Shown here piece by piece: positions 1 to 12,197 of a stretch of DNA of 64,000 nt. The notes beneath the pieces are model-generated. The model did no database searches, was not told the origin of the DNA, and was given only the letters and a program-made list of their open reading frames with translations. The position numbers and the translations under genes were made by a program. The stretch lies in NCBI RefSeq assembly GCF_900114705.1, contig NZ_FOTW01000029.1:1-64000 (forward strand), read 5' to 3'. This DNA is from Rugamonas rubra (GTDB taxonomy: Bacteria; Pseudomonadota; Gammaproteobacteria; Burkholderiales; Burkholderiaceae_D). Each line of letters opens with the position of its first letter. Position 1 is the first letter of the stretch.

Positions 1-1056
<1,056 letters not shown>

Positions 1057-1090
1057 TTCTTGATTTTTAAGAGCTAGCGATAGATGAAAA

Positions 1091-1122
1091 GGGCAGGGCC
1101 GCTCGCGGCGCTGCCCTTTTTT
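1091..1122 (+). terminator. Intrinsic terminator after tuf
   Basis: GGGCAG (1091-1096) pairs with CTGCCC (1111-1116). An inner GCCG/CGGC stem extends the hairpin, and six T residues follow at 1117-1122. It lies about 35 bp after the tuf stop codon and separates the str operon from rpsJ. Confidence 0.85.
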
Positions 1123-1244
1123 ATCGAGCTGCTGAGAACGGCGCGCATTTTGGTGCTATCATGTCGTCCCTAGCAGTATCAAGGTAGTTTTTTTACTTAT
1201 TGCCGCGCGCCAGCCGCCGCGGTTCGTTCTTTTAAGGAAATACC

Positions 1245-1562
1245 ATGTCGACCCCAAATCAAAAAATCCGTATCCGTCTGAAAGCTTTCGACTACAAGCT
1301 GATCGACCAATCCGCTCTGGAAATCGTCGAAACCGCTAAGCGCACCGGCGCCGTGGTCAAGGGTCCAGTACCCCTGCCAACCCGCATCCAGCGTTTCGAC
1401 GTTCTGCGTTCGCCACACGTCAACAAGACCTCGCGCGACCAGTTCGAGATCCGTACCCACCAGCGTCTGATGGACATCGTTGATCCTACCGACAAGACCG
1501 TCGACGCGCTGATGAAGCTGGACCTGCCAGCTGGTGTTGACGTCGAAATCAAACTGCAATAA
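1245..1562 (+). CDS. rpsJ: 30S ribosomal protein S10
   Basis: Small-subunit protein S10 (NusE), also a NusB partner in rRNA antitermination. The 105 aa product is close to the family length, and the conserved block [25 protein letters not shown] is present (20+ residues, positions about 46-70). ATG 1245 follows an AAGGA ribosome binding site. Normally it is the first gene of the S10 operon directly before rplC. Here it is followed by a strong terminator, and rplC starts 6.3 kb downstream, so rpsJ may be transcribed alone or with tuf read-through. Confidence 0.98.
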
Positions 1563-1601
1563 TCATTGCCGAGCCGGCGGGGTGTCCCGCCGGTTCAAGA
1601 A

Positions 1602-1646
1602 GGGGCCGGGCCGGTTCGCATCGCGAACTCGCCCGGCCCCTTTTTT
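1602..1646 (+). terminator. Strong intrinsic terminator after rpsJ
   Basis: GGGGCCGGGC (1602-1611) pairs perfectly with GCCCGGCCCC (1631-1640). The hairpin is extended inward by CGGTTCGC-like pairing, and TTTTTT follows at 1641-1646. A second hairpin, CCGGCGGG/CCCGCCGG (1574-1593), precedes it. This would end transcription right after rpsJ. Confidence 0.92.
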
Positions 1647-1860
1647 CATGGCGCCACCGGTGCAGCGGGCCCTCCGTTCCAAAAAGCAACAGAGTTCCTT
1701 CCAAATCAAGGAATATCGAGAATATCAAGCTGAAAGTCTTTCGTTTTCCGTAGTGATGTGAGACATTCCAGAGTTGCGTGAAAAGCCAGGCCCCTTTTAC
1801 AACAAGAAGACCTTGGTGAACACGCGGAACTTTTATAAAAAAATTCACCCGGGAGTAGTC

Positions 1861-4665
<2,805 letters not shown>

Positions 4666-4687
4666 TTCCTCGGCAACTCGAGGGCTG

Positions 4688-4720
4688 AAAAACCAGGCAC
4701 GCCGTGCCTGGTTTTTTTTT
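4688..4720 (+). terminator. Intrinsic terminator after TonB receptor
   Basis: AACCAGGCAC (4691-4700), loop GCC, then GTGCCTGGTT (4704-4713), followed by a T run to 4720. The A run before the stem makes it partly bidirectional. It separates the receptor transcript from the peptide array. Confidence 0.93.
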
Positions 4721-4775
4721 GGTTCTTGCCGGTCCGCCGCGAAGAGCGTACCAATTTCGCAACCATCAACAATAC

Positions 4776-4826
4776 CTATTTATTAAAAGTATTGTTTTGG
4801 TAATTCTCCTATGTTAACTTCATATG
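4776..4826 (+). repeat. AT-rich upstream element, copy 1
   Basis: AT-rich stretch upstream of the first peptide gene. It aligns without gaps to 5183-5233 (about 35 of 51 identical by hand count). Shared cores are TAAAAGTAT, GGTAAT, an ATG triplet and TTCATAT. CAATAC (4770-4775) and GTATTG (4789-4794) form an inverted repeat across it. It probably contains a promoter and operator, but I cannot assign clear -35/-10 boxes. Confidence 0.6.
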
Positions 4827-4931
4827 CCCATGCAGCTTTTGCCTGGACGCCGGCGTGCCGGTGCGCACGTCGAGCAGCGCTCCGGCAGCACCTGCAAGCA
4901 AGTCCACATCGTCAACTTTGGAGAGTCCGCA

Positions 4932-5129
4932 ATGAAGATCAAGCCACTTTTGTTCATGTTCGCCCTCGGCCTCGGCAGCGCGACGGTGTATGCCGACACG
5001 CCACGGGGCCAATGCCTGGCCGATTGCAACAGGTCCTACGAGCGCTGCAACGGGCCGGTATCGGACGCCCCCGACCCTTGGTGCATCGAGCAGCTCACCT
5101 ATTGCCAAGACGCCTGCGACGCCCTGTGA
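4932..5129 (+). CDS. Small secreted six-cysteine peptide (paralogue 1)
   Basis: 65 aa. ATG 4932 follows TTGGAGAG. The signal peptide runs to YA at residues 20-21 and contains the family core FALGLG. The mature part has Cys 28, 32, 39, 51, 58 and 62, spaced x3, x6, x11, x6, x3, with Tyr four residues after the second Cys. The predicted destination is the periplasm or outside of the cell via Sec. The three cysteines of each half fall on one helix face, so a helical hairpin with three disulfides is plausible (inference). It is the first of eight tandem paralogues and has the longest distance to its upstream neighbour, consistent with a transcription start here. I do not recognise the family. The cysteine layout recalls CX3C-type alpha-hairpinins, but with one more Cys per half. 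Confidence 0.85.
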   Translation: MKIKPLLFMFALGLGSATVYADTPRGQCLADCNRSYERCNGPVSDAPDPWCIEQLTYCQDACDAL

Positions 5130-5135
5130 TCGGTT

Positions 5136-5153
5136 CCGGCCGCGCGCGGCCGG
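5136..5153 (+). other. GC-rich palindromic hairpin after paralogue 1
   Basis: The perfect palindrome CCGGCCGC-GC-GCGGCCGG lies 7 bases after the stop codon of the first peptide gene. No T run follows, so it is more likely an mRNA-stabilising or Rho-assisted 3' end than a classical intrinsic terminator. Confidence 0.5.
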
Positions 5154-5182
5154 CGTAGTAAATACGCAACTCGAATTCATAT

Positions 5183-5233
5183 ATCTTTACTAAAAGTATA
5201 TTTTAGGTAATATTGATATGCCGATTTCATATA
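5183..5233 (+). repeat. AT-rich upstream element, copy 2
   Basis: Second copy of the element at 4776-4826, here 122 bp before the glutaredoxin gene. CTAAAA (5190-5195) and TTTTAG (5201-5206) form a short inverted repeat within it. A further inverted repeat, CCGATTTC (5221-5228) with GAAATCGG (5241-5248), overlaps its end. The same element before two adjacent genes suggests a common regulator. Confidence 0.6.
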
Positions 5234-5354
5234 GGTAGGCGAAATCGGCGAGGGCAGGGCGGTTCCCGATCGGAGCGCGCCCTGATGTTCCCGCCGCGCG
5301 CCGCACCGGCACGCCCATTGGCGGTCTCTCCATCGGAAACAAGGCCGAGTCGAC

Positions 5355-5750
5355 ATGTTGATCCAGAAACTGAAGCAAACCGTTTCCTATCTGCTGGTGC
5401 TCGGCGCCGGCCTCGGCGCCGGCTACGTCGCCGTGCACGCCCCGCAGTGGCTCAAATCGCCCTACACCGAGGGCAACTACGCCGCCTACTTCCCCGACGC
5501 CAAGACCCAGGTGGTGGTCTACGGCACCAAGCACTGCCCCTATTGCGCCAAGACACGCGACTATCTGCGCGGCCAGAACATCGCCTTCGCCGACTTCGAC
5601 ATCGAGGACTCCAGCAAGGCCCGCGAGGAGTTCAAACGCCTCGACGGCGAGGGCGTGCCCGTCATCCTGATCGGCAACCGCCGCATCGCCGGCTTCAACC
5701 AGGCCGCCATCGAGGACGCGCTCAAGCGCGCCAGCAAGCCCGGCGCCTGA
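5355..5750 (+). CDS. Membrane-anchored glutaredoxin-like protein
   Basis: 131 aa. Residues 9-28 form one hydrophobic segment (LVLGAGLGAGYVAVH), likely an uncleaved anchor with the rest in the periplasm (inference). Residues 50-128 are a glutaredoxin fold with the redox motif CPYC at 61-64 and the cis-proline region GVPVILIGNRRIAGF at 100-114. Classical glutaredoxins are cytoplasmic and glutathione-dependent. A periplasm-facing one inside a cluster of cysteine-rich secreted peptides suggests a role in forming, reducing or reshuffling their disulfides. It sits between paralogues 1 and 2 and shares the upstream element with paralogue 1. It could alternatively be a cytoplasmic-facing protein of unrelated function; topology is not proven. 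Confidence 0.85.
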   Translation: MLIQKLKQTVSYLLVLGAGLGAGYVAVHAPQWLKSPYTEGNYAAYFPDAKTQVVVYGTKHCPYCAKTRDYLRGQNIAFADFDIEDSSKAREEFKRLDGEGVPVILIGNRRIAGFNQAAIEDALKRASKPGA

Positions 5751-5850
5751 GCCGCTAGAACACATCGCAACACCGCTGTGGCGGGCAGGGCGTGCGGACG
5801 GCGCGCCCGGCCTGTATCCGTCCGTCCGATTTGCCATCTGGAGACGCACC

Positions 5851-6042
5851 ATGAAAGTGAAATTGTCGCTGTTCCTGTTCGCCCTCGGCCTGGGCGCTTC
5901 CGCCGCCAACGCCCGCCCGCCCAACTGGGAGTGCCTGCAGGGTTGCAACGCCGTCTACAAGTACTGCCTGAAGTCGCAGCCGAGCGAGGTCTGCGCCGCC
6001 GAGCGCCAACAGTGCCGGGAAGAGTGCATCGGCGCCGAATAG
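5851..6042 (+). CDS. Small secreted six-cysteine peptide (paralogue 2)
   Basis: 63 aa. ATG 5851 follows CTGGAGACGCACC. The signal peptide has the FALGLG core and ends NA at about residue 21. Cys 28, 32, 39, 48, 55 and 59 are spaced x3, x6, x8, x6, x3. Tyr 36 occupies the conserved aromatic position. The mature peptide has a Trp-Glu before the first Cys and a Gln/Arg/Glu-rich second half. It lies 100 bp after the glutaredoxin gene on the same strand and is probably cotranscribed with it. Function unknown; recognised only as a member of this local family. Confidence 0.85.
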   Translation: MKVKLSLFLFALGLGASAANARPPNWECLQGCNAVYKYCLKSQPSEVCAAERQQCREECIGAE

Positions 6043-6049
6043 GCATCGC

Positions 6050-6071
6050 GGCGGCCGCCGCAGCGGCCGCC
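6050..6071 (+). other. GC hairpin between paralogues 2 and 3
   Basis: GGCGGCCGC (6050-6058), loop CGCA, GCGGCCGCC (6063-6071). The 9-bp stem lies 8 bases after the stop codon. No T run follows immediately. It may stabilise the upstream mRNA or lower expression of downstream genes. Confidence 0.5.
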
Positions 6072-6110
6072 ATTGTCGCTACGATTCGACCTTTTTAAGG
6101 ACTACAAAAG

Positions 6111-6296
6111 ATGAAAAAGGGAATTGCCTTGTTCCTGTTTGCGCTCGGCCTGGGTTGCTCGCTGGCCAACGCCGACCCGAACTGTCACAACCGGTGCGAC
6201 CTCAAGTATCAGGCTTGCCTGGCGAAGCACCCGGGCAGTCTGCAATGCAAAGACGATTTGTATCAGTGCCGCGCCGACTGCTCCAACCATAACTGA
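6111..6296 (+). CDS. Small secreted six-cysteine peptide (paralogue 3)
   Basis: 61 aa. ATG 6111 follows TTAAGGACTACAAAAG. The signal peptide has the FALGLG core and an extra Cys at residue 16, which is expected to be removed on cleavage after ANA (residues 19-21). Mature Cys 25, 29, 36, 46, 53 and 57 are spaced x3, x6, x9, x6, x3, with Tyr 33 at the conserved position. The mature region starts DPNC and is strongly charged (Lys, Arg, Asp). Cys 16 is too early in the precursor and lacks an LxGC-like lipobox context (LGLGC), but a lipoprotein reading cannot be fully excluded. Confidence 0.85.
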   Translation: MKKGIALFLFALGLGCSLANADPNCHNRCDLKYQACLAKHPGSLQCKDDLYQCRADCSNHN

Positions 6297-6352
6297 GCAC
6301 CACTTCCCAATGGCCCGCTGCCGCGTTTGAACCCACGATTGGAGAATGATCG

Positions 6353-6550
6353 ATGAAGCTGAAGCTGAAACTGTCCCTGTTTATGTTCGCCCTCGGCCTG
6401 GGCGGCTCGACCGCCACCGCCTACGCCGGCGGCAACTGGTGCCTGAACCAATGCCAGGCCGAATGGCGCTACTGCGTCAGCCACAACGGCGGCCCGCAGT
6501 GCAACGACACGCTGACCGCGTGCCGCCACTTCTGCCTGCGTGACGAGTAA
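6353..6550 (+). CDS. Small secreted six-cysteine peptide (paralogue 4)
   Basis: 65 aa. ATG 6353 follows TTGGAGAATGATCG. The basic N-terminus has a duplicated KLK, then the FALGLG core and AYA cleavage site at 23-25. Cys 30, 34, 41, 50, 57 and 61 are spaced x3, x6, x8, x6, x3. The conserved aromatic is Trp 38 instead of Tyr. The loop between the halves is short and Gly-rich (SHNGGPQ), as expected for a turn between two helices. Same strand and spacing as its neighbours, so likely part of one polycistronic unit. Confidence 0.85.
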   Translation: MKLKLKLSLFMFALGLGGSTATAYAGGNWCLNQCQAEWRYCVSHNGGPQCNDTLTACRHFCLRDE

Positions 6551-6624
6551 GAGCAAGCCGGGGCCGGCGCGTGCGTGCCGGCCCATCACCCCGTTGTCTA
6601 TCCAACTGACTTGGAGGAAGCACC

Positions 6625-6825
6625 ATGAAAGCCAAACTGATGCTGTTTGTGTTCGCACTCGGCCTGGGCAGCGCGACCGTGTACGCCGAAACCCCGCAGC
6701 ACCAATGCCAAACCCAGTGCCAAAAGGCCTACAAGCGCTGCACCGGCGGCATCCTGACGCCGGAACCGAACGAGGCCTGCCTGCAGCAGCTTTCCGATTG
6801 CTTGGACACCTGCGAAGGCCTGTAG
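6625..6825 (+). CDS. Small secreted six-cysteine peptide (paralogue 5)
   Basis: 66 aa, the longest of the eight. ATG 6625 follows TTGGAGGAAGCACC. The signal peptide is close to that of paralogue 1 (FALGLGSATVYA), and the mature starts are also alike (TP-x2-QC), so these two may be a recent duplicate pair. Cys 28, 32, 39, 52, 59 and 63 are spaced x3, x6, x12, x6, x3, with Tyr 36 conserved. The inter-half loop contains prolines (TPEPNEA). The C-terminal half is acidic. Confidence 0.85.
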   Translation: MKAKLMLFVFALGLGSATVYAETPQHQCQTQCQKAYKRCTGGILTPEPNEACLQQLSDCLDTCEGL

Positions 6826-6862
6826 TCCGGCGCCGAGCGCAGCAACTGAAGGGACCGAAAAA

Positions 6863-7057
6863 ATGAACAAGTTGAAGTTGTCGCTGTTCCTGTTCACCCT
6901 CGGCCTGGGCGCCTCGAGCGCCTACGCCAACGACCCGGTGTACGCCTGCTACAAGCAGTGCGCCGAGAACTACCGCCAGTGCGTCGGCTTCGGCACAGGC
7001 CTGCCGTGCCAGCAATGGCGCGAGGAGTGCGACGCCGGCTGTCCCGACATGGTGTAG
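6863..7057 (+). CDS. Small secreted six-cysteine peptide (paralogue 6)
   Basis: 64 aa. ATG 6863 follows AAGGGACCGAAAAA, a different leader from the TTGGAG type. The signal core is FTLGLG, the only Ala-to-Thr change in the family, ending AYA. Cys 29, 33, 40, 49, 56 and 60 are spaced x3, x6, x8, x6, x3, with Tyr 37 at the aromatic position. The loop is Gly-rich (VGFGTGLP). Only 37 bp separates it from paralogue 5. Confidence 0.85.
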   Translation: MNKLKLSLFLFTLGLGASSAYANDPVYACYKQCAENYRQCVGFGTGLPCQQWREECDAGCPDMV

Positions 7058-7141
7058 CCGAAGCCGTAGCAAGCAGCGTCGCCGCCGTGGCGCGGCATGG
7101 CGGCGCCGCAGTCGCCATCCGCGCAGCCACTTGGAGAGAAG

Positions 7142-7327
7142 ATGAAGCTGAAAATCCGTATGTTCCTGTTCGCGCTGGGCCTGGGTAGCTCGATGGCCTG
7201 GGCCCAGCCCAACCTGAACACCTGCCTGAACCAGTGCACCTACGACTACAACCAGTGCCGCGCCAACGGCCAGCCCTCGTGCGGCGCCATCCGCAGCGCC
7301 TGCGTGGGCGACTGCTACCGCCAGTAA
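7142..7327 (+). CDS. Small secreted six-cysteine peptide (paralogue 7)
   Basis: 61 aa. ATG 7142 follows TTGGAGAGA and is preferred over an upstream in-frame ATG at 7097, because the family alignment and signal peptide begin here. The signal ends AWA. Cys 28, 32, 39, 47, 54 and 58 are spaced x3, x6, x7, x6, x3, the shortest loop of the family (RANGQPS). The conserved aromatic is Tyr 36. The mature part has few acidic and several Asn/Gln residues. Confidence 0.85.
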   Translation: MKLKIRMFLFALGLGSSMAWAQPNLNTCLNQCTYDYNQCRANGQPSCGAIRSACVGDCYRQ

Positions 7328-7433
7328 GCCGGCGTCCGCTTCGCGGCGGCGTCGTTTTGGAGCCGGGGCGGCGCCGCCGCCCCCTCCCGTCCGGGCGCCG
7401 TCGCGCACCCGGTCCTACCACCAGGAGACTGCA

Positions 7434-7607
7434 ATGAAAACCAAATTGGCCCTGTTCCTCTTCGCCCTCGGACTGGGCAGCTCGATGGCCGTCGCCTCGA
7501 CGCCCTGCACCTACCAGTGCGATGTGCAATACCGCTCCTGCCTGCAATACAGCAGCGCCGCTGAGTGCCGCGCCCTCAGGCTGGAGTGCTACGGCGAGTG
7601 CATGTAG
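7434..7607 (+). CDS. Small secreted six-cysteine peptide (paralogue 8)
   Basis: 57 aa, read directly from the sequence and short enough to be missed by length-filtered gene callers. ATG 7434 follows CAGGAGACTGCA. The signal peptide has FALGLGSSMAVA, very like paralogue 7 (FALGLGSSMAWA), so the two may be recent duplicates. Cys 25, 29, 36, 45, 52 and 56 are spaced x3, x6, x8, x6, x3, with Tyr 33 in place. The peptide ends ECM one residue after the last Cys. It is the last member of the array; rplC follows after about 300 bp. Confidence 0.85.
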   Translation: MKTKLALFLFALGLGSSMAVASTPCTYQCDVQYRSCLQYSSAAECRALRLECYGECM

Positions 7608-7613
7608 CGGCTG

Positions 7614-7647
7614 CCGGCCCCGCGTCCGGCGCCCGCGGCGGGGCCGG
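7614..7647 (+). terminator. Possible 3' hairpin of the peptide array
   Basis: CCGGCCCCGC (7614-7623) pairs with GCGGGGCCGG (7638-7647) around a GC-rich loop, starting 6 bases after the stop codon of paralogue 8. No T run follows, so it is a weak or Rho-assisted terminator candidate at most. Confidence 0.4.
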
Positions 7648-7781
7648 ACGAGGGGTGCTCCTCGCGCCCCCTGCGGCGCGGCCGCGGCCGCGCCGCGCCT
7701 GCCTTTCCGCCCGATCTCCCCTGCCGCCGCCCGCGCCCGCCTGCGCCGCCACGCCGCCGCCACATACCCCGTATTAAGTTG

Positions 7782-7810
7782 TTGCGTCAAGACCCTTTTC
7801 GGGATACACT
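7782..7810 (+). promoter_or_regulatory. Candidate sigma-70 promoter for rplC operon
   Basis: TTGCGT (7782-7787), a 17-base spacer, then TACACT (7805-7810), 94 bp before the rplC start. The boxes are only moderate matches, but the spacing is ideal. A promoter is needed here because rpsJ is terminated 6 kb upstream. Confidence 0.5.
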
Positions 7811-7904
7811 AGCCGGCTTCGGTATGGATTCGCCCTTTTTGAGTTCATACGTTACTTTGTAGTTAAACAAGCCCCGCCCAATCGCAGGTGGGAATGGAGA
7901 AAAA

Positions 7905-8561
7905 ATGAGCCTAGGCCTCCTCGGTCGCAAGGTTGGTATGATGCGCATTTTCACGGACGAAGGGGATTCGATTCCTGTCACCGTGTTGGACGTATCGAAC
8001 AATCGTGTTGCGCAAATCAAAACTCCTGAAACAGACGGTTACTCCGCTGTTCAGGTCGCATTCGGTCAACGTCGCGCTTCCCGCGTGACCAAGGCTGTTG
8101 CTGGTCACCACGCCAAAGCTGGTGTTGAAGCCGGTACTCTGTTGAAAGAGTTCCGCGTCGACGCCACCAAGGCAGCAGAACTGAAAGCCGGCGATGTCGT
8201 TGCCGCTTCCCTGTTCGAAGTCGGCCAAAAGGTCGACGTCCAAGGCGTTACGATTGGTAAAGGTTACGCTGGCGTCATCAAGCGTTACCACTTCGGTTCC
8301 GGCCGCGCTACCCACGGTAACTCCCGTTCGCACAACGTTCCAGGCTCCATCGGTATGGCGCAAGATCCAGGTCGCGTTTTCCCTGGTAAGCGCATGACCG
8401 GTCACCTGGGTGACGTTAACCGTACGATCCAGAACCTCGTCATCGCTCGTATCGACGCCGACCGCCAGCTGCTGCTGGTCAAGGGTGCGATTCCAGGCGC
8501 GAAAAATGGCCAGGTCGTAGTGTCGCCAGCCGTCAAAACCAAAGCCAAGAAGGGAGCTTAA
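7905..8561 (+). CDS. rplC: 50S ribosomal protein L3
   Basis: Early-assembly 23S rRNA-binding protein whose loop reaches the peptidyl transferase centre. 218 aa, near the family length, with the L3 signature region [19 protein letters not shown] (about residues 131-149) and [18 protein letters not shown] 7905 follows a GGAG ribosome binding site. It is the first gene of the remaining S10 operon and lies 3 bp before rplD. Its separation from rpsJ is the odd feature. Confidence 0.98.
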
Positions 8562-8564
8562 ACG

Positions 8565-9185
8565 ATGGAACTCAAGCTCTTGAACGCGCAAGGTCAAGCC
8601 GCCTCGAACGTCGCCGCCGCCGATACCATTTTCGGTCGTGACTACAACGAAGCGCTGATCCACCAAGTCGTCGTCGCCTATCAGGCGAACGCACGCGGCG
8701 GTAACCGCAAACAGAAAGACCGTGAAGAAGTTCACCACACGACGAAAAAGCCATGGCGCCAAAAAGGTACCGGCCGCGCTCGTGCTGGTATGTCGTCGTC
8801 GCCACTGTGGCGCGGCGGTGGTCGGATCTTCCCGAACTCGCCTGACGAGAACTTCACCCACAAAGTGAACAAAAAGATGTATCGCGCAGGTATCTGCTCG
8901 ATCCTGTCCCAGCTGGCCCGCGAAGACCGTCTGACGATCATCGAAGATCTGACGATCGAAGCGCCAAAGACCAAGCTGTTGTCGCAAAAGCTGACCGGTA
9001 TGGGTTTCGACTCCGTGCTGATCATCACCGACACGCTGGACGAGAACCTGCTGCTGGCATCGCGCAACCTGCCGAACGTGCTGGTTGTTGAACCACGTCA
9101 CGCAGATCCAATGTCCCTGGTGTTCTACAAGAAGATCCTGGTCACCAAAGCTGCACTGGCTAAGATTGAGGAGATGCTGGCATGA
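8565..9185 (+). CDS. rplD: 50S ribosomal protein L4
   Basis: Binds 23S rRNA domain I and extends into the exit tunnel. In E. coli it also represses its own operon through the S10 leader; whether that holds here is doubtful because the leader gene rpsJ is detached. 206 aa. The tunnel loop region [20 protein letters not shown] (about residues 63-82) is intact. The 3' end overlaps the rplW start by 4 bases (ATGA), giving translational coupling. Confidence 0.98.
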
Positions 9186-9499
9186 GCGCGGTATTGAAAT
9201 TTAGCGAAGAGCGCCTGATGAAGGTGCTGCTGGCTCCGGTCATTTCCGAAAAGGCCACCATGGTCGCGGAAAAGAACGAGCAGATCGTATTCCGTGTCAC
9301 CAAGGATGCGACCAAGCCAGAAATCAAAGCAGCCGTTGAACTGTTGTTCAAGGTTGAGGTTCTGTCGGTTCAGACAGCCAACCGCCAAGGTAAGCAGAAG
9401 CGCACCGGTGCCCACACCGGCCGTCGCAACCATACCAAACGCGCTTTCGTGTGCCTGAAGCCCGGCCAGGAAATCAACTTCTCCGAGGAGGCTAAATAA
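9182..9499 (+). CDS. rplW: 50S ribosomal protein L23
   Basis: Exit-tunnel rim protein that docks trigger factor and SRP. 105 aa, with typical [22 protein letters not shown] near residues 14-35 (core VISEKAT) and a basic loop [10 protein letters not shown]. It overlaps rplD by 4 bases, and its stop codon overlaps the rplB ATG (TAATGG). Confidence 0.98.
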
Positions 9500-10326
9500 T
9501 GGCACTCGTTAAGATGAAACCAACCTCGCCAGGCCGTCGTGGCATGGTAAAAGTGGTGAACCCAGACCTGTACAAAGGTCGTCCGTTCGCTGCTCTGGTT
9601 GAGAAAAAATCCAAAACTGCTGGTCGTAACAACAACGGCCACATCACCACCCGCCACATCGGCGGTGGTCATAAGCAGCACTATCGCCTGATCGACTTCA
9701 AGCGCCAGAAAGATGGTATTCCAGCGAAAGTGGAACGGATCGAATACGATCCAAACCGCACCGCGAACATCGCTCTGCTGTGCTACGCCGACGGCGAGCG
9801 CCAGTACATCATCGCTACCAAGGGCATGGCCGTTGGCGACAGCGTGATGAACGGTTCGGAAGCGCCTATCAAGTCGGGCAACTGCCTGCCGATCCGCAAC
9901 ATCCCGGTCGGTACCATCATGCACTGCGTCGAAATGCTGCCAGGTAAGGGTGCCCAGATGGCCCGTACCGCCGGCGCCGGCGTCGTCCTGATGGCCCGCG
10001 AAGGCACCTACGCTCAAGTGCGTCTGCGCTCGGGTGAAGTGCGTCGCGTGCACATCGAGTGCCGTGCCACCGTGGGTGAAGTCGGCAACGCCGAACACAG
10101 CCTGCGTAAAATCGGTAAGGCCGGCGCGATGCGCTGGCGCGGTGTTCGTCCTACCGTTCGCGGTGTGGTCATGAACCCGGTCGATCACCCGCACGGTGGT
10201 GGTGAAGGTAAAACAGCAGCTGGTCGTCATCCAGTTTCGCCTTGGGGCCAACAGACTAAGGGTAAGAAGACACGCCGTAACAAGCGTACTACTTCCATGA
10301 TCGTCTCGCGCCGCGGCAAGAAATAA
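9499..10326 (+). CDS. rplB: 50S ribosomal protein L2
   Basis: Primary 23S rRNA-binding protein needed for subunit joining and peptidyl transfer. 275 aa. The catalytic-region signature [13 protein letters not shown] is present near residue 225, and the basic C-terminus ([17 protein letters not shown]) is complete. It starts inside the rplW stop codon and lies 10 bp before rpsS. Confidence 0.99.
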
Positions 10327-10336
10327 GGGGTAGCAC

Positions 10337-10612
10337 ATGACACGTTCATTGAAAAAAGGGCCGTTTTGTGACGCCCACCTGGTGAAAAAAGTCGAAGCCG
10401 CGCAAGCGATCAAAGACAAAAAGCCAATCAAAACCTGGTCCCGCCGTTCGACCATCATGCCTGACTTCATCGGCCTGACGATCGCTGTTCACAACGGCAA
10501 ACTGCACGTTCCCGTGTACGTTTCCGAGAACATGGTTGGTCACAAGCTCGGCGAATTCGCGCTGACCCGCACGTTCAAGGGCCATGCCGCTGACAAGAAG
10601 GCGAAGAAATAA
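10337..10612 (+). CDS. rpsS: 30S ribosomal protein S19
   Basis: Small-subunit head protein that contacts S13 and the A-site tRNA. 91 aa with typical TRSLKKGPF start and [20 protein letters not shown] core. Its stop codon overlaps the rplV start (TAATGG). Confidence 0.98.
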
Positions 10613-10941
10613 TGGAAACCAAAGCTATCCTCAAAGGTGTGCGCTTGTCGGATCAAAAGGGTCGCCTCGTCGCTGACCTGATCCGCGGCAAGAAAGTTGA
10701 CGCTGCGCTCAACATTCTGCAATTCAGCCCAAAAAAGGGCGCGACCATCATCAAGAAGGTTCTGGAGTCGGCTATCGCCAACGCCGAGCACAATGATGGC
10801 GCGGACATCGACGAACTGTTCGTGAAAACGATCTACGTCGAAAAGGGCCCGATCCTGAAGCGCTTTACTGCACGCGCTAAAGGCCGGGGTGATCGTATCT
10901 CGAAGCAATCCTGTCACATTTTCGTGACTGTCGGCAACTAA
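10612..10941 (+). CDS. rplV: 50S ribosomal protein L22
   Basis: 23S rRNA-binding protein whose beta hairpin lines the exit tunnel; mutations there confer macrolide resistance in other bacteria. 109 aa, with the hairpin region [20 protein letters not shown] at about residues 83-102 intact. It begins in the rpsS stop codon and precedes rpsC by 9 bp. Confidence 0.98.
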
Positions 10942-10950
10942 GGAGTCACG

Positions 10951-11775
10951 ATGGGACAGAAGATACATCCAACAGGCTTCCGCCTTTCGGTTACCCGTAA
11001 CTGGGCATCGCGTTGGTACGCTGGCAACGGTAATTTCGCTGCCATGCTCAACGAAGATCTGAAAGCACGCGCCTACCTGAAAACCAAACTGAAGAACGCT
11101 TCGGTTGGCCGCATCGTCATCGAGCGTCCTGCCAAGAACGCGCGCTTCACGATCTACAGCTCGCGTCCGGGCGTGGTCATCGGTAAAAAAGGCGAAGATA
11201 TCGAAGTGCTGAAAGCGGCCCTGACCAAAATCATGGGTGTGCCGGTACACGTCAATATCGAAGAGATCCGCAAGCCGGAAATCGACTCGCAGCTGATCGC
11301 CGATTCGATCGCCCAACAGCTGGAAAAACGCATCATGTTCCGTCGCGCCATGAAACGCGCGATGCAGAACGCCATGCGTCTGGGTGCCCTGGGCATCAAG
11401 ATCATGTCGTCGGGTCGTCTGAACGGTATCGAAATCGCTCGTAAAGAGTGGTATCGCGAAGGTCGCGTGCCTCTGCACACCCTGCGCGCCGATATCGACT
11501 ACGGTACCAGCGAAGCGTCGACCACCTACGGCATCATCGGTGTCAAGGTGTGGGTGTACAAGGGTGACCGCGCGCCGAACGGCGACGCACCAGTCATCGA
11601 CACCCCGCCGGACGAGAAGAAAAGCCGCGGTCCACGTCGTGACGACGGCAAACCAGCTGGCCGTCCGCGTCCAGCCGGCGCCGGTGCGAAACCAACCACA
11701 GCACCAGGTGCACGTGTGCGTACCGCCGCTAAACCGGCCGTCGTTGCTGCGCCAGCTGAGAAAGCAGGAGAATAA
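10951..11775 (+). CDS. rpsC: 30S ribosomal protein S3
   Basis: Lines the mRNA entry channel. 274 aa, with a type II KH domain ([11 protein letters not shown] near residue 74). Compared with the 233 aa E. coli protein it has a C-terminal tail of about 40 residues (after about residue 230) rich in Pro, Ala, Lys and Arg. Such tails occur in betaproteobacterial S3 and are probably disordered. It is followed after 2 bp by rplP. Confidence 0.98.
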
Positions 11776-11777
11776 TC

Positions 11778-12197
11778 ATGCTGCAACCAGCACGCAGAAA
11801 GTATCGTAAAGAGCAGAAAGGCCGTAACACCGGTATTTCGCACAGCCGCGGCACCGCCGTGTCGTTCGGCGAATTCGGTCTGAAAGCTGTTGCCCGTGGT
11901 CGTATCACGGCACGCCAAATCGAGGCAGCACGTCGCGCCATGACCCGTCACATCAAACGTGGCGGTCGTATCTGGATCCGCGTGTTCCCGGACAAGCCAA
12001 TCTCGAACAAGCCTGCCGAAGTCCGTATGGGTAACGGTAAGGGTAATCCAGAGTACTACGTCGCTGAAATCCAGCCAGGCAAAGTCCTGTACGAGATGGA
12101 CGGCGTGGACGAAGCGCTGGCACGGGAAGCTTTCCGTCTTGCCGCCGCTAAACTGCCACTGGCCACGACCTTCGTCGTGCGTCAAGTTGGCCAATAA
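11778..12197 (+). CDS. rplP: 50S ribosomal protein L16
   Basis: Binds near the A site of the large subunit. 139 aa, with typical [11 protein letters not shown] start and [22 protein letters not shown] core (about residues 54-75). The gene sits 2 bp after rpsC and 13 bp before rpmC, within one transcription unit. Confidence 0.98.

Follow-up and report, generated by a model that had tools for sequence, protein, structure and literature searches.

The first 64,000 nt of contig NZ_FOTW01000029.1 of Rugamonas rubra, a bacterium of soil or fresh water (hereafter the window), contain, between positions 4932 and 7607, eight genes for short, exported-looking precursors that share one six-cysteine framework, together with the gene of a glutaredoxin (5355-5750). 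Across genomes, these peptides and this glutaredoxin are tightly associated. An earlier note, made by a model that had seen the sequence alone, described the peptide genes and missed the glutaredoxin, a predicted membrane-anchored enzyme that co-occurs with the peptides across genomes. We propose that peptides and enzyme form a two-part module, in which hairpin peptides would be exported and served by a dedicated periplasmic glutaredoxin before being, probably, released onto other cells; we give this reading, taken as a whole, an even chance.

The peptide genes and their association with a glutaredoxin

All eight precursor genes lie on the forward strand and encode 57-66 amino acids (aa; Table 1), at the coordinates previously noted, which hold. 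The framework C-x3-C-x3-[YW]-x2-C-x(7-12)-C-x6-C-x3-C is common to 8/8 precursors: the six cysteines (C1 to C6) are invariant, a Y or W stands four residues after C2, and the C3-C4 loop measures 7-12 residues. A six-frame scan of the window for this framework gave 8 matches, all inside the array, with none in the 61,250 bases beyond it, none when the array was base-shuffled 200 times and none in 20,000 residue shuffles in which the precursors were shuffled from residue 21 onward. The earlier description of eight such genes is thus confirmed. That of a tandem array needs amending, since the glutaredoxin gene sits between precursors 1 and 2 and the array is not uninterrupted. The aromatic residue, also listed as a kept feature, is present throughout the window array but is no rule of the wider family, where Y, W or F occupies this position in 86 of 138 distinct cores and the framework reads C-x3-C-x6-C-x(7-13)-C-x6-C-x3-C (the cores come from a part of the collected loci and include one spurious low-complexity match).

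A Shine-Dalgarno-like purine stretch, judged by eye, precedes most precursor starts. When the window precursors were compared with their best hits in Rugamonas sp. CCM 8940 (locus L069), the synonymous substitution rate (dS) exceeded the nonsynonymous rate (dN) in 7/8 pairs, the values being rough for such short genes and the pairs being best hits rather than established orthologues. Because of this excess, the eight genes are very probably coding. Short mechanical open reading frames (ORFs) are common in GC-rich DNA here, and chance ORFs or an artefact might be suspected; given the lack of framework matches beyond the array or in the shuffles, the conservation across genera and the dS values, we consider the likelihood of such an origin to be negligible.

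A Sec-type signal with an A-x-A end was recognized by eye in all eight precursors, and the peptides are predicted to be exported. The signal had been described as one shared signal peptide; the signals proved similar (mean pairwise identity 0.59) but not identical. Outside the cysteines, the mean pairwise identity of the mature parts is 0.13, and among 74 family members the corresponding values are 0.42 for the signal and 0.11 for the mature non-cysteine residues. A conserved signal joined to a divergent mature part is the pattern of animal venom families. Free variation of the mature residues, as claimed earlier, is seen between paralogues (13% identity outside cysteines), but the probable orthologues among the best-hit pairs with Rugamonas sp. 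CCM 8940 are mostly under purifying selection. For the gene at 6625, the excess of dN over dS is confined to the signal part (dN 0.125, dS 0.061), and for the mature part of 5851 the values were 0.077 (dN) and 0.088 (dS). Positive selection was considered and was not borne out: whole-gene dN exceeded dS for 7142 only, and this pair, at 56% identity, probably consists of paralogues rather than orthologues. Toxins, bacteriocins, metal chelators or signals were the possible functions named in the earlier note. Cationic antimicrobial or membrane-active peptides are rejected as a general explanation on grounds of charge, as 137 mature parts were found to be mildly acidic (mean net charge -2.03, range -7 to +2) and 0/137 reached +3 or more.

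The product of 5355-5750 contains a glutaredoxin domain (Pfam Glutaredoxin, E = 6.1e-15, 55.6 bits against a cut-off of 22.9), and its C61, C64 and P102 do not vary among 31 aligned relatives. The N-terminus is basic and leads, in an AlphaFold2 (AF2) model, into a helix at residues 2-33 (~32 residues) and then into a glutaredoxin fold with the CPYC motif; the helix is a putative membrane anchor that would place the catalytic domain in the periplasm. The catalytic domain also matched TIGR02196 (E = 3.7e-20), at 72.2 bits and under the cut-off of 88.55, and the PDB matches by sequence and by fold were glutaredoxins and NrdH; the GF that follows the proline segment also resembles NrdH. The enzyme is like the NrdH/YruB-type glutaredoxins in its catalytic domain but differs from them by the N-terminal helix and by its linkage to the peptide genes. 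A plasmid search with the glutaredoxin gave one partial match, at 37.5%. At positions 4644-4982 of locus L171, and as the same protein in L108, a glutaredoxin copy occurs without the N-terminal anchor and with no peptide seen nearby; it looks like a decaying module.

Within the genus, all 19 peptide-bearing genomes also hold the glutaredoxin, which is present in 21 of the 74 genomes (Fisher p = 9.8e-16, uncorrected for common descent). The two genus genomes with glutaredoxin but no peptide match are G026 and G039. That of G026 is a divergent anchored relative (84.7 bits; L172, 4500-5475) flanked by two small cysteine-containing ORFs, one of which has a similar signal and two C-x3-C pairs, and this locus is perhaps a distant form of the module. 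The glutaredoxin of G039 has no N-terminal anchor in its open frame, possibly through a sequencing error, and no peptide was found in the 9.5 kb examined. In a family-level sample of 294 genomes, every one of the 37 genomes whose peptide match reaches E <= 1e-10 holds a glutaredoxin match of at least 139 bits. G068, with a weaker peptide match (E = 1.1e-4), has the glutaredoxin as well. Starting instead from the glutaredoxin, the exact six-cysteine framework was found in 32 of 43 loci, with the nearest copy no more than 1 kb away, and a cysteine-rich variant in 6 more. These variants comprise a C-x4-C form beside the glutaredoxin in L109 (where the exact-framework match was a spurious low-complexity ORF and was left out of the 32), four-cysteine forms in L071, L074 and L076, and another cysteine-rich peptide, on the opposite strand, in L078 and L080. 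No peptide was seen in the remaining 5/43 loci (L086, L106, L108, L110 and L111).

Predicted fold and known families

AF2, run on the mature part of precursor 5851-6042 with a 90-sequence alignment, returned helices at residues 3-16 and 22-38 (mean pLDDT 88.0, pTM 0.55), and from this model of one mature peptide the family is predicted to fold as an antiparallel two-helix hairpin. The cysteine positions are 0, 4 and 11 for helix 1 and 0, 7 and 11 for helix 2, a mirrored spacing of 4+7 and 7+4; at 100 degrees per residue, the three cysteines of each helix lie within 40 degrees and hence on one face. Seen from the turn, they stand at 0, 7 and 11 in both helices, and because of this mirrored order C3-C4, C2-C5 and C1-C6 should face each other, so that a three-rung disulfide ladder is expected. 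The earlier view of the peptides as secreted and disulfide-rich is likewise supported, both properties being predicted. Among 195 distinct aligned hits, 180 carry all six cysteines, 6 lack both C1 and C6, and none lacks C1 alone. Seven were scored as lacking C6: 6 of these carry it one residue later (C-x4-C), and one, a degenerate hit (L052, 7708-8058), keeps C1 without a normal C6. The last 2 are of the L078/L080 type. The joint losses fit a C1-C6 pairing but represent few independent events, five of the six coming from three Massilia loci. Foldseek gave nothing significant with the peptide model, and VIA-align on nine Foldseek chains gave Z <= 4.7, a 40-residue hairpin carrying little signal. 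One family member (L102, 10501-10725) has a cysteine-rich C-terminal extension past the hairpin.

The peptide family is apparently undescribed. The eight window peptides and 74 family members gave weak matches only, none of them convincing, against Pfam, NCBIfam and PHROG, which agrees with the earlier placement outside described bacterial families; no profile match to a well-characterised family emerged from these scans. The best matches, GAS_sig_Nterm (4.9e-5; 7/74 members) and PtrA N-terminal (1.2e-4; 4/74), probably reflect the signal peptide, because both model N-terminal regions. BorA followed at 0.0043 (4/74), and single members matched at 0.005 in Pfam (Gp10_D3, Defensin_big) and at 0.0088 in PHROGs. 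A literature search covering titles and abstract openings of top-ranked results, with subscription papers and preprints largely outside it, found no description of the family. Against PDB sequences, the peptide profile had seven matches, none significant, and one mature peptide alone had no match. The top and third of the profile matches were the animal toxins U-actitoxin-Aeq5a and neurotoxin B-IV (E = 0.082 and 0.29), and the B-IV-like Pfam family Toxin_13 matched one family member (E = 0.075); such likeness probably reflects similar cysteine spacing reached by convergence.

By analogy of plan, we regard the glycocins (sublancin, glycocin F, pallidocin and thermoglycocin) as the closest working analogue. 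The inner cysteines of the peptides here (C-x6-C ... C-x6-C) match the spacing of sublancin. According to two reports (PMC6405829, PMC12457901), glycocins are short two-helix peptides with nested disulfides and have dedicated thioredoxin-like thiol-disulfide oxidoreductases alongside. A cluster-encoded oxidoreductase is likewise present here in the co-occurring 5355-5750 glutaredoxin, and the two-helix core with nested disulfides may have a counterpart in the predicted hairpin (pLDDT 88). Two further marks of glycocins were looked for. No SunS-like glycosyltransferase was recognized in 4666-7904, overlapping opposite-strand ORFs being outside the scan, and the precursors have a Sec-type signal where glycocins have a leader that a C39 peptidase/ABC transporter cleaves off, with no such transporter recognized in the array. 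The system here also differs in its lack of a recognized immunity gene in the window array, in a predicted outer third rung instead of a C-terminal loop, in its Gram-negative hosts, in the use of a glutaredoxin as redox enzyme and in its numbers, with up to 21 copies. Plant alpha-hairpinins, according to PMC11591084, are helix-loop-helix peptides with C-x3-C pairs, of which six-cysteine forms exist with the prevalent motif C-X3-C-X3-C-X10-C-X3-C-X3-C. Their outer C-x3-C pairs match those here, whereas the inner spacing here is x6; their precursors can carry several modules per chain, whereas each gene here carries one. The likeness is one of framework only.

Proposed mechanism and alternatives

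In the proposed mechanism, the peptides would be exported by the Sec route and their signal removed, after which each would form an antiparallel two-helix hairpin stapled by the disulfides C1-C6, C2-C5 and C3-C4. Such stapling would leave the other surface residues free to diversify. These disulfides would be formed or corrected by a glutaredoxin that is anchored in the inner membrane and exposes its CPYC domain to the periplasm; disulfide formation by an exported glutaredoxin in the periplasm of E. coli was reportedly described by Eser and co-workers in 2009. The folded peptides would finally be released across the outer membrane, with other organisms (competitors, predators or hosts) as targets. 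The association across genomes makes a folding partnership of glutaredoxin and peptides likely, and we infer the periplasmic location and the catalysis by the glutaredoxin. Extracellular action of the peptides on other cells is a possibility that we rate somewhat below even, and their release and extracellular target are a guess.

Several observations weigh against this mechanism. The disulfides are a prediction, and the glutaredoxin could equally reduce the peptides. No outer-membrane exporter and no obvious immunity gene were recognized in the window array (opposite-strand ORFs being outside the scan), and, with dN above dS in the 7142 pair only, an arms race is not demonstrated. As to the association, the genus-level peptide match of G068 is weak (E = 1.5e-4), is a four-cysteine variant and lies on a contig other than that of its glutaredoxin. 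In the family sample, a glutaredoxin cut-off of 100 bits, picked after the list had been seen, is reached by 45 genomes; 7 of these, six belonging to genus g7, gave no peptide match, and genomes under the cut-off yielded five weak ones (E = 2e-5 to 9.5e-4). Finally, no glutaredoxin was seen in the stretch examined around each of the peptide clusters L047, L049, L061, L062, L064 and L065, whose genomes carry it elsewhere.

Three alternatives keep the peptides in the periplasm. In the least improbable of these, which we still hold to be unlikely, the peptides would buffer metal, their cysteines binding Cu(I), Zn or another soft metal while the glutaredoxin keeps the thiols reduced. Six cysteines per ~40 residues would suit this role, and so would the example of the bufferins, which PMC12452194 presents as Sec-exported, small, cysteine-rich copper chelators, some with six cysteines (conserved in Buf2 in 90% of cases) and some encoded by tandem precursor genes. 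The cysteine spacing, however, is that of facing helices, histidine and methionine are scarce (0.64 and 0.93 per peptide), and 13% identity outside the cysteines would be unusual for a single metal site. Where bufferins (Buf1/Buf2) have an MNIO/DUF2063 pair, the peptides here have a glutaredoxin partner. The MNIO family PF05114 is found in 73/74 genus genomes, with or without peptides, and no MNIO gene is adjacent to the peptides in R. rubra itself, where MNIO genes lie on contigs C50 and C54 and the arrays on C64 and C48, although an enzyme acting from elsewhere is possible. DUF2282 (PF10048), the Buf1 domain, is not among the 13 Pfam families matched by the 74 members at E <= 0.1. No match named Buf_6/12Cys, the Buf2 profile that the authors of PMC12452194 provide on request, occurs among the listed hits of the 74 members.

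A periplasmic redox buffer or thiol-stress sink, in which sacrificial dithiols or disulfides would be cycled by the glutaredoxin under oxidative stress and copy number would set the dose, strikes us as more improbable still. The close pairing of the peptides with a thiol-redox enzyme speaks in its favour, as does a glutaredoxin-like backup coupled to periplasmic glutathione that is postulated in E. coli (PMC10344953). A pure thiol buffer, however, would need neither a fixed six-cysteine register nor divergent surfaces nor up to 21 copies, and many surfaces would suggest many partners. The hairpin model could also suit proteins retained in the periplasm as envelope chaperones or small structural components, like the hairpin small Tim proteins. 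An M48 peptidase gene inside the array of G048, with a near-identical protein in G040, would accord with such a role, since M48 includes envelope quality-control proteases. The absence of a peptide match from 55/74 genus genomes nevertheless argues against a core envelope function, and we consider this alternative very unlikely.

Taking the proposed module of exported peptides and glutaredoxin a step further, one may envisage a Gram-negative, venom-like library directed against microbes or predators, with one export signal, one ladder scaffold, up to 21 copies with changing surfaces and a private, tethered glutaredoxin. This we advance tentatively, as rather doubtful; if true, it would mean that the glycocin plan had been arrived at a second time, independently and minus glycosylation. 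The module would in any case add an apparently undescribed family of exported peptides to familiar genera (Janthinobacterium, Duganella, Massilia), and in it an exported glutaredoxin is naturally paired with its likely substrates, which would make the possible roles of a glutaredoxin in the bacterial periplasm directly testable. If the peptides are released, their scaffold would constitute a natural library of short, variable, stapled hairpins.

Genomic setting and distribution

The array block lies between rpsJ (1245-1562) and rplC (7905-8561), within the S10 ribosomal operon and downstream of a TonB-dependent receptor gene and a terminator-like hairpin (Table 1). The interval from the receptor gene to rplC (4666-7904) showed no recognized gene other than those of the eight peptides and the glutaredoxin, overlapping opposite-strand ORFs being outside the scan. 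rplC was matched in 30 of 31 genomes examined, giving 30 loci in the genus; because 29/30 of these showed no rpsJ at a distance of up to 1.5 kb from rplC, the gap seems to be a general insertion slot in the genus, not one peculiar to the array. The TonB receptor was considered as a part of the module, which was unsupported: homologues occur no more than 1.5 kb upstream of rplC in 6/30 loci, two of them at only 27% identity, and the window locus is not among the six because the array intervenes. Terminator-like sites numbered 4, against 3.0 expected in shuffles. At 1174-6765 of L058 (Duganella sacchari, by the twin record L079), the slot is occupied by the glutaredoxin and one peptide together with a DUF817 gene, an ORF of 234 aa and a TonB receptor.

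Table 1. Features of the array block and its upstream region in the window (positions in nt).
Feature	Position	Strand	Evidence
Six-cysteine hairpin precursor 1, 65 aa	4932..5129	+	Framework and alignment; L069 best-hit pair dN 0.141, dS 0.587
Six-cysteine hairpin precursor 2, 63 aa	5851..6042	+	Framework and alignment; mature part 5920-6039 modelled as helix hairpin, pLDDT 88
Six-cysteine hairpin precursor 3, 61 aa	6111..6296	+	Framework and alignment; best-hit pair dN 0.266, dS 1.091
Six-cysteine hairpin precursor 4, 65 aa	6353..6550	+	Framework and alignment; best-hit pair dN 0.066, dS 0.289
Six-cysteine hairpin precursor 5, 66 aa	6625..6825	+	Framework and alignment; best-hit pair dN 0.083, dS 0.121
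Six-cysteine hairpin precursor 6, 64 aa	6863..7057	+	Framework and alignment; best-hit pair dN 0.007, dS 0.356
Six-cysteine hairpin precursor 7, 61 aa	7142..7327	+	Framework and alignment; best-hit pair dN 0.501, dS 0.417, 56% identity
Six-cysteine hairpin precursor 8, 57 aa	7434..7607	+	Framework and alignment; best-hit pair dN 0.246, dS 0.750
Glutaredoxin, 131 aa, CPYC, N-terminal helix read as membrane anchor	5355..5750	+	Pfam Glutaredoxin; AF2; PDB glutaredoxin/NrdH matches
Conserved element upstream of precursor 1, putative regulatory site	4790..4813	+	21/24 consensus positions
Conserved element upstream of glutaredoxin gene, putative regulatory site	5197..5220	+	23/24 consensus positions
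TonB-dependent receptor gene (context only)	1774..4665	+	Pfam TonB_dep_Rec_b-barrel 1.3e-40, Plug 6.4e-19
Terminator-like hairpin in gap between TonB-receptor gene and array	4687..4717	+	14-pair stem, then T-rich tail

The 24-base element found upstream of precursor 1 and of the glutaredoxin gene is found again ahead of the second cluster in this genome (contig C48, L047) and is also present in L049, in L058/L079 (one genome) and in L069. Weaker matches (19/24) occur in L049, L071 and L074, with none in one shuffled copy of the loci. In the whole genome, its 19-base core is exact at two family sites and has three mismatches at the third; two other three-mismatch matches were found, a number equal to the control count of 2. 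The element may be a dedicated regulatory site. An Rfam scan of window positions 1-12000 gave no match.

Other genes accompany the peptides elsewhere. The M48 peptidase gene in the G048 array (L050, 9661-10413; Pfam 2e-14) has a signal-like N-terminus, as has the near-identical protein of the G040 array (L052, 11778-12530), recognized by reading its sequence; G059 and G070 (L053, L054) have 250-aa ORFs at a like place, judged by position only. Genes for LysR-type regulators lie within or next to the G070 and G016 clusters (L054, 12526-13428; L066, 8874-9779). The M48 and LysR neighbours would fit quality control and regulated expression.

The profile search of genomes that the earlier note had proposed as a check found relatives in related genera. 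R. rubra itself has ten peptide copies, eight in the window array (contig C64) and two on contig C48. Peptide members occur in 19/74 genus genomes, with up to 19 per genome by the first profile (G048) and 21 copies in G040 by a wider one. In the broader samples, each of which includes the genome of the window, matches were found in 43/294 genomes (family), 3/399 (order, first profile) and 11/398 (phylum). Absences are less certain than presences, as the candidates scored per genome numbered 85 in the genus peptide search, at most 21 in the order, family and phylum searches, and 14 for glutaredoxin in the family sample. The 43 loci from a glutaredoxin scan of named genomes, which may leave out records very near the window, belong mainly to Rugamonas, Duganella, Massilia, Pseudoduganella, Janthinobacterium and Undibacterium, with weaker matches in Methylophilus and a Burkholderiaceae metagenome bin. 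Among the distant phylum matches, several show a similar cysteine spacing in short exported-looking proteins (L126-L131 and L137-L139, within 1.5 kb surroundings) and others are only partial; these distant matches may be relatives or convergent.

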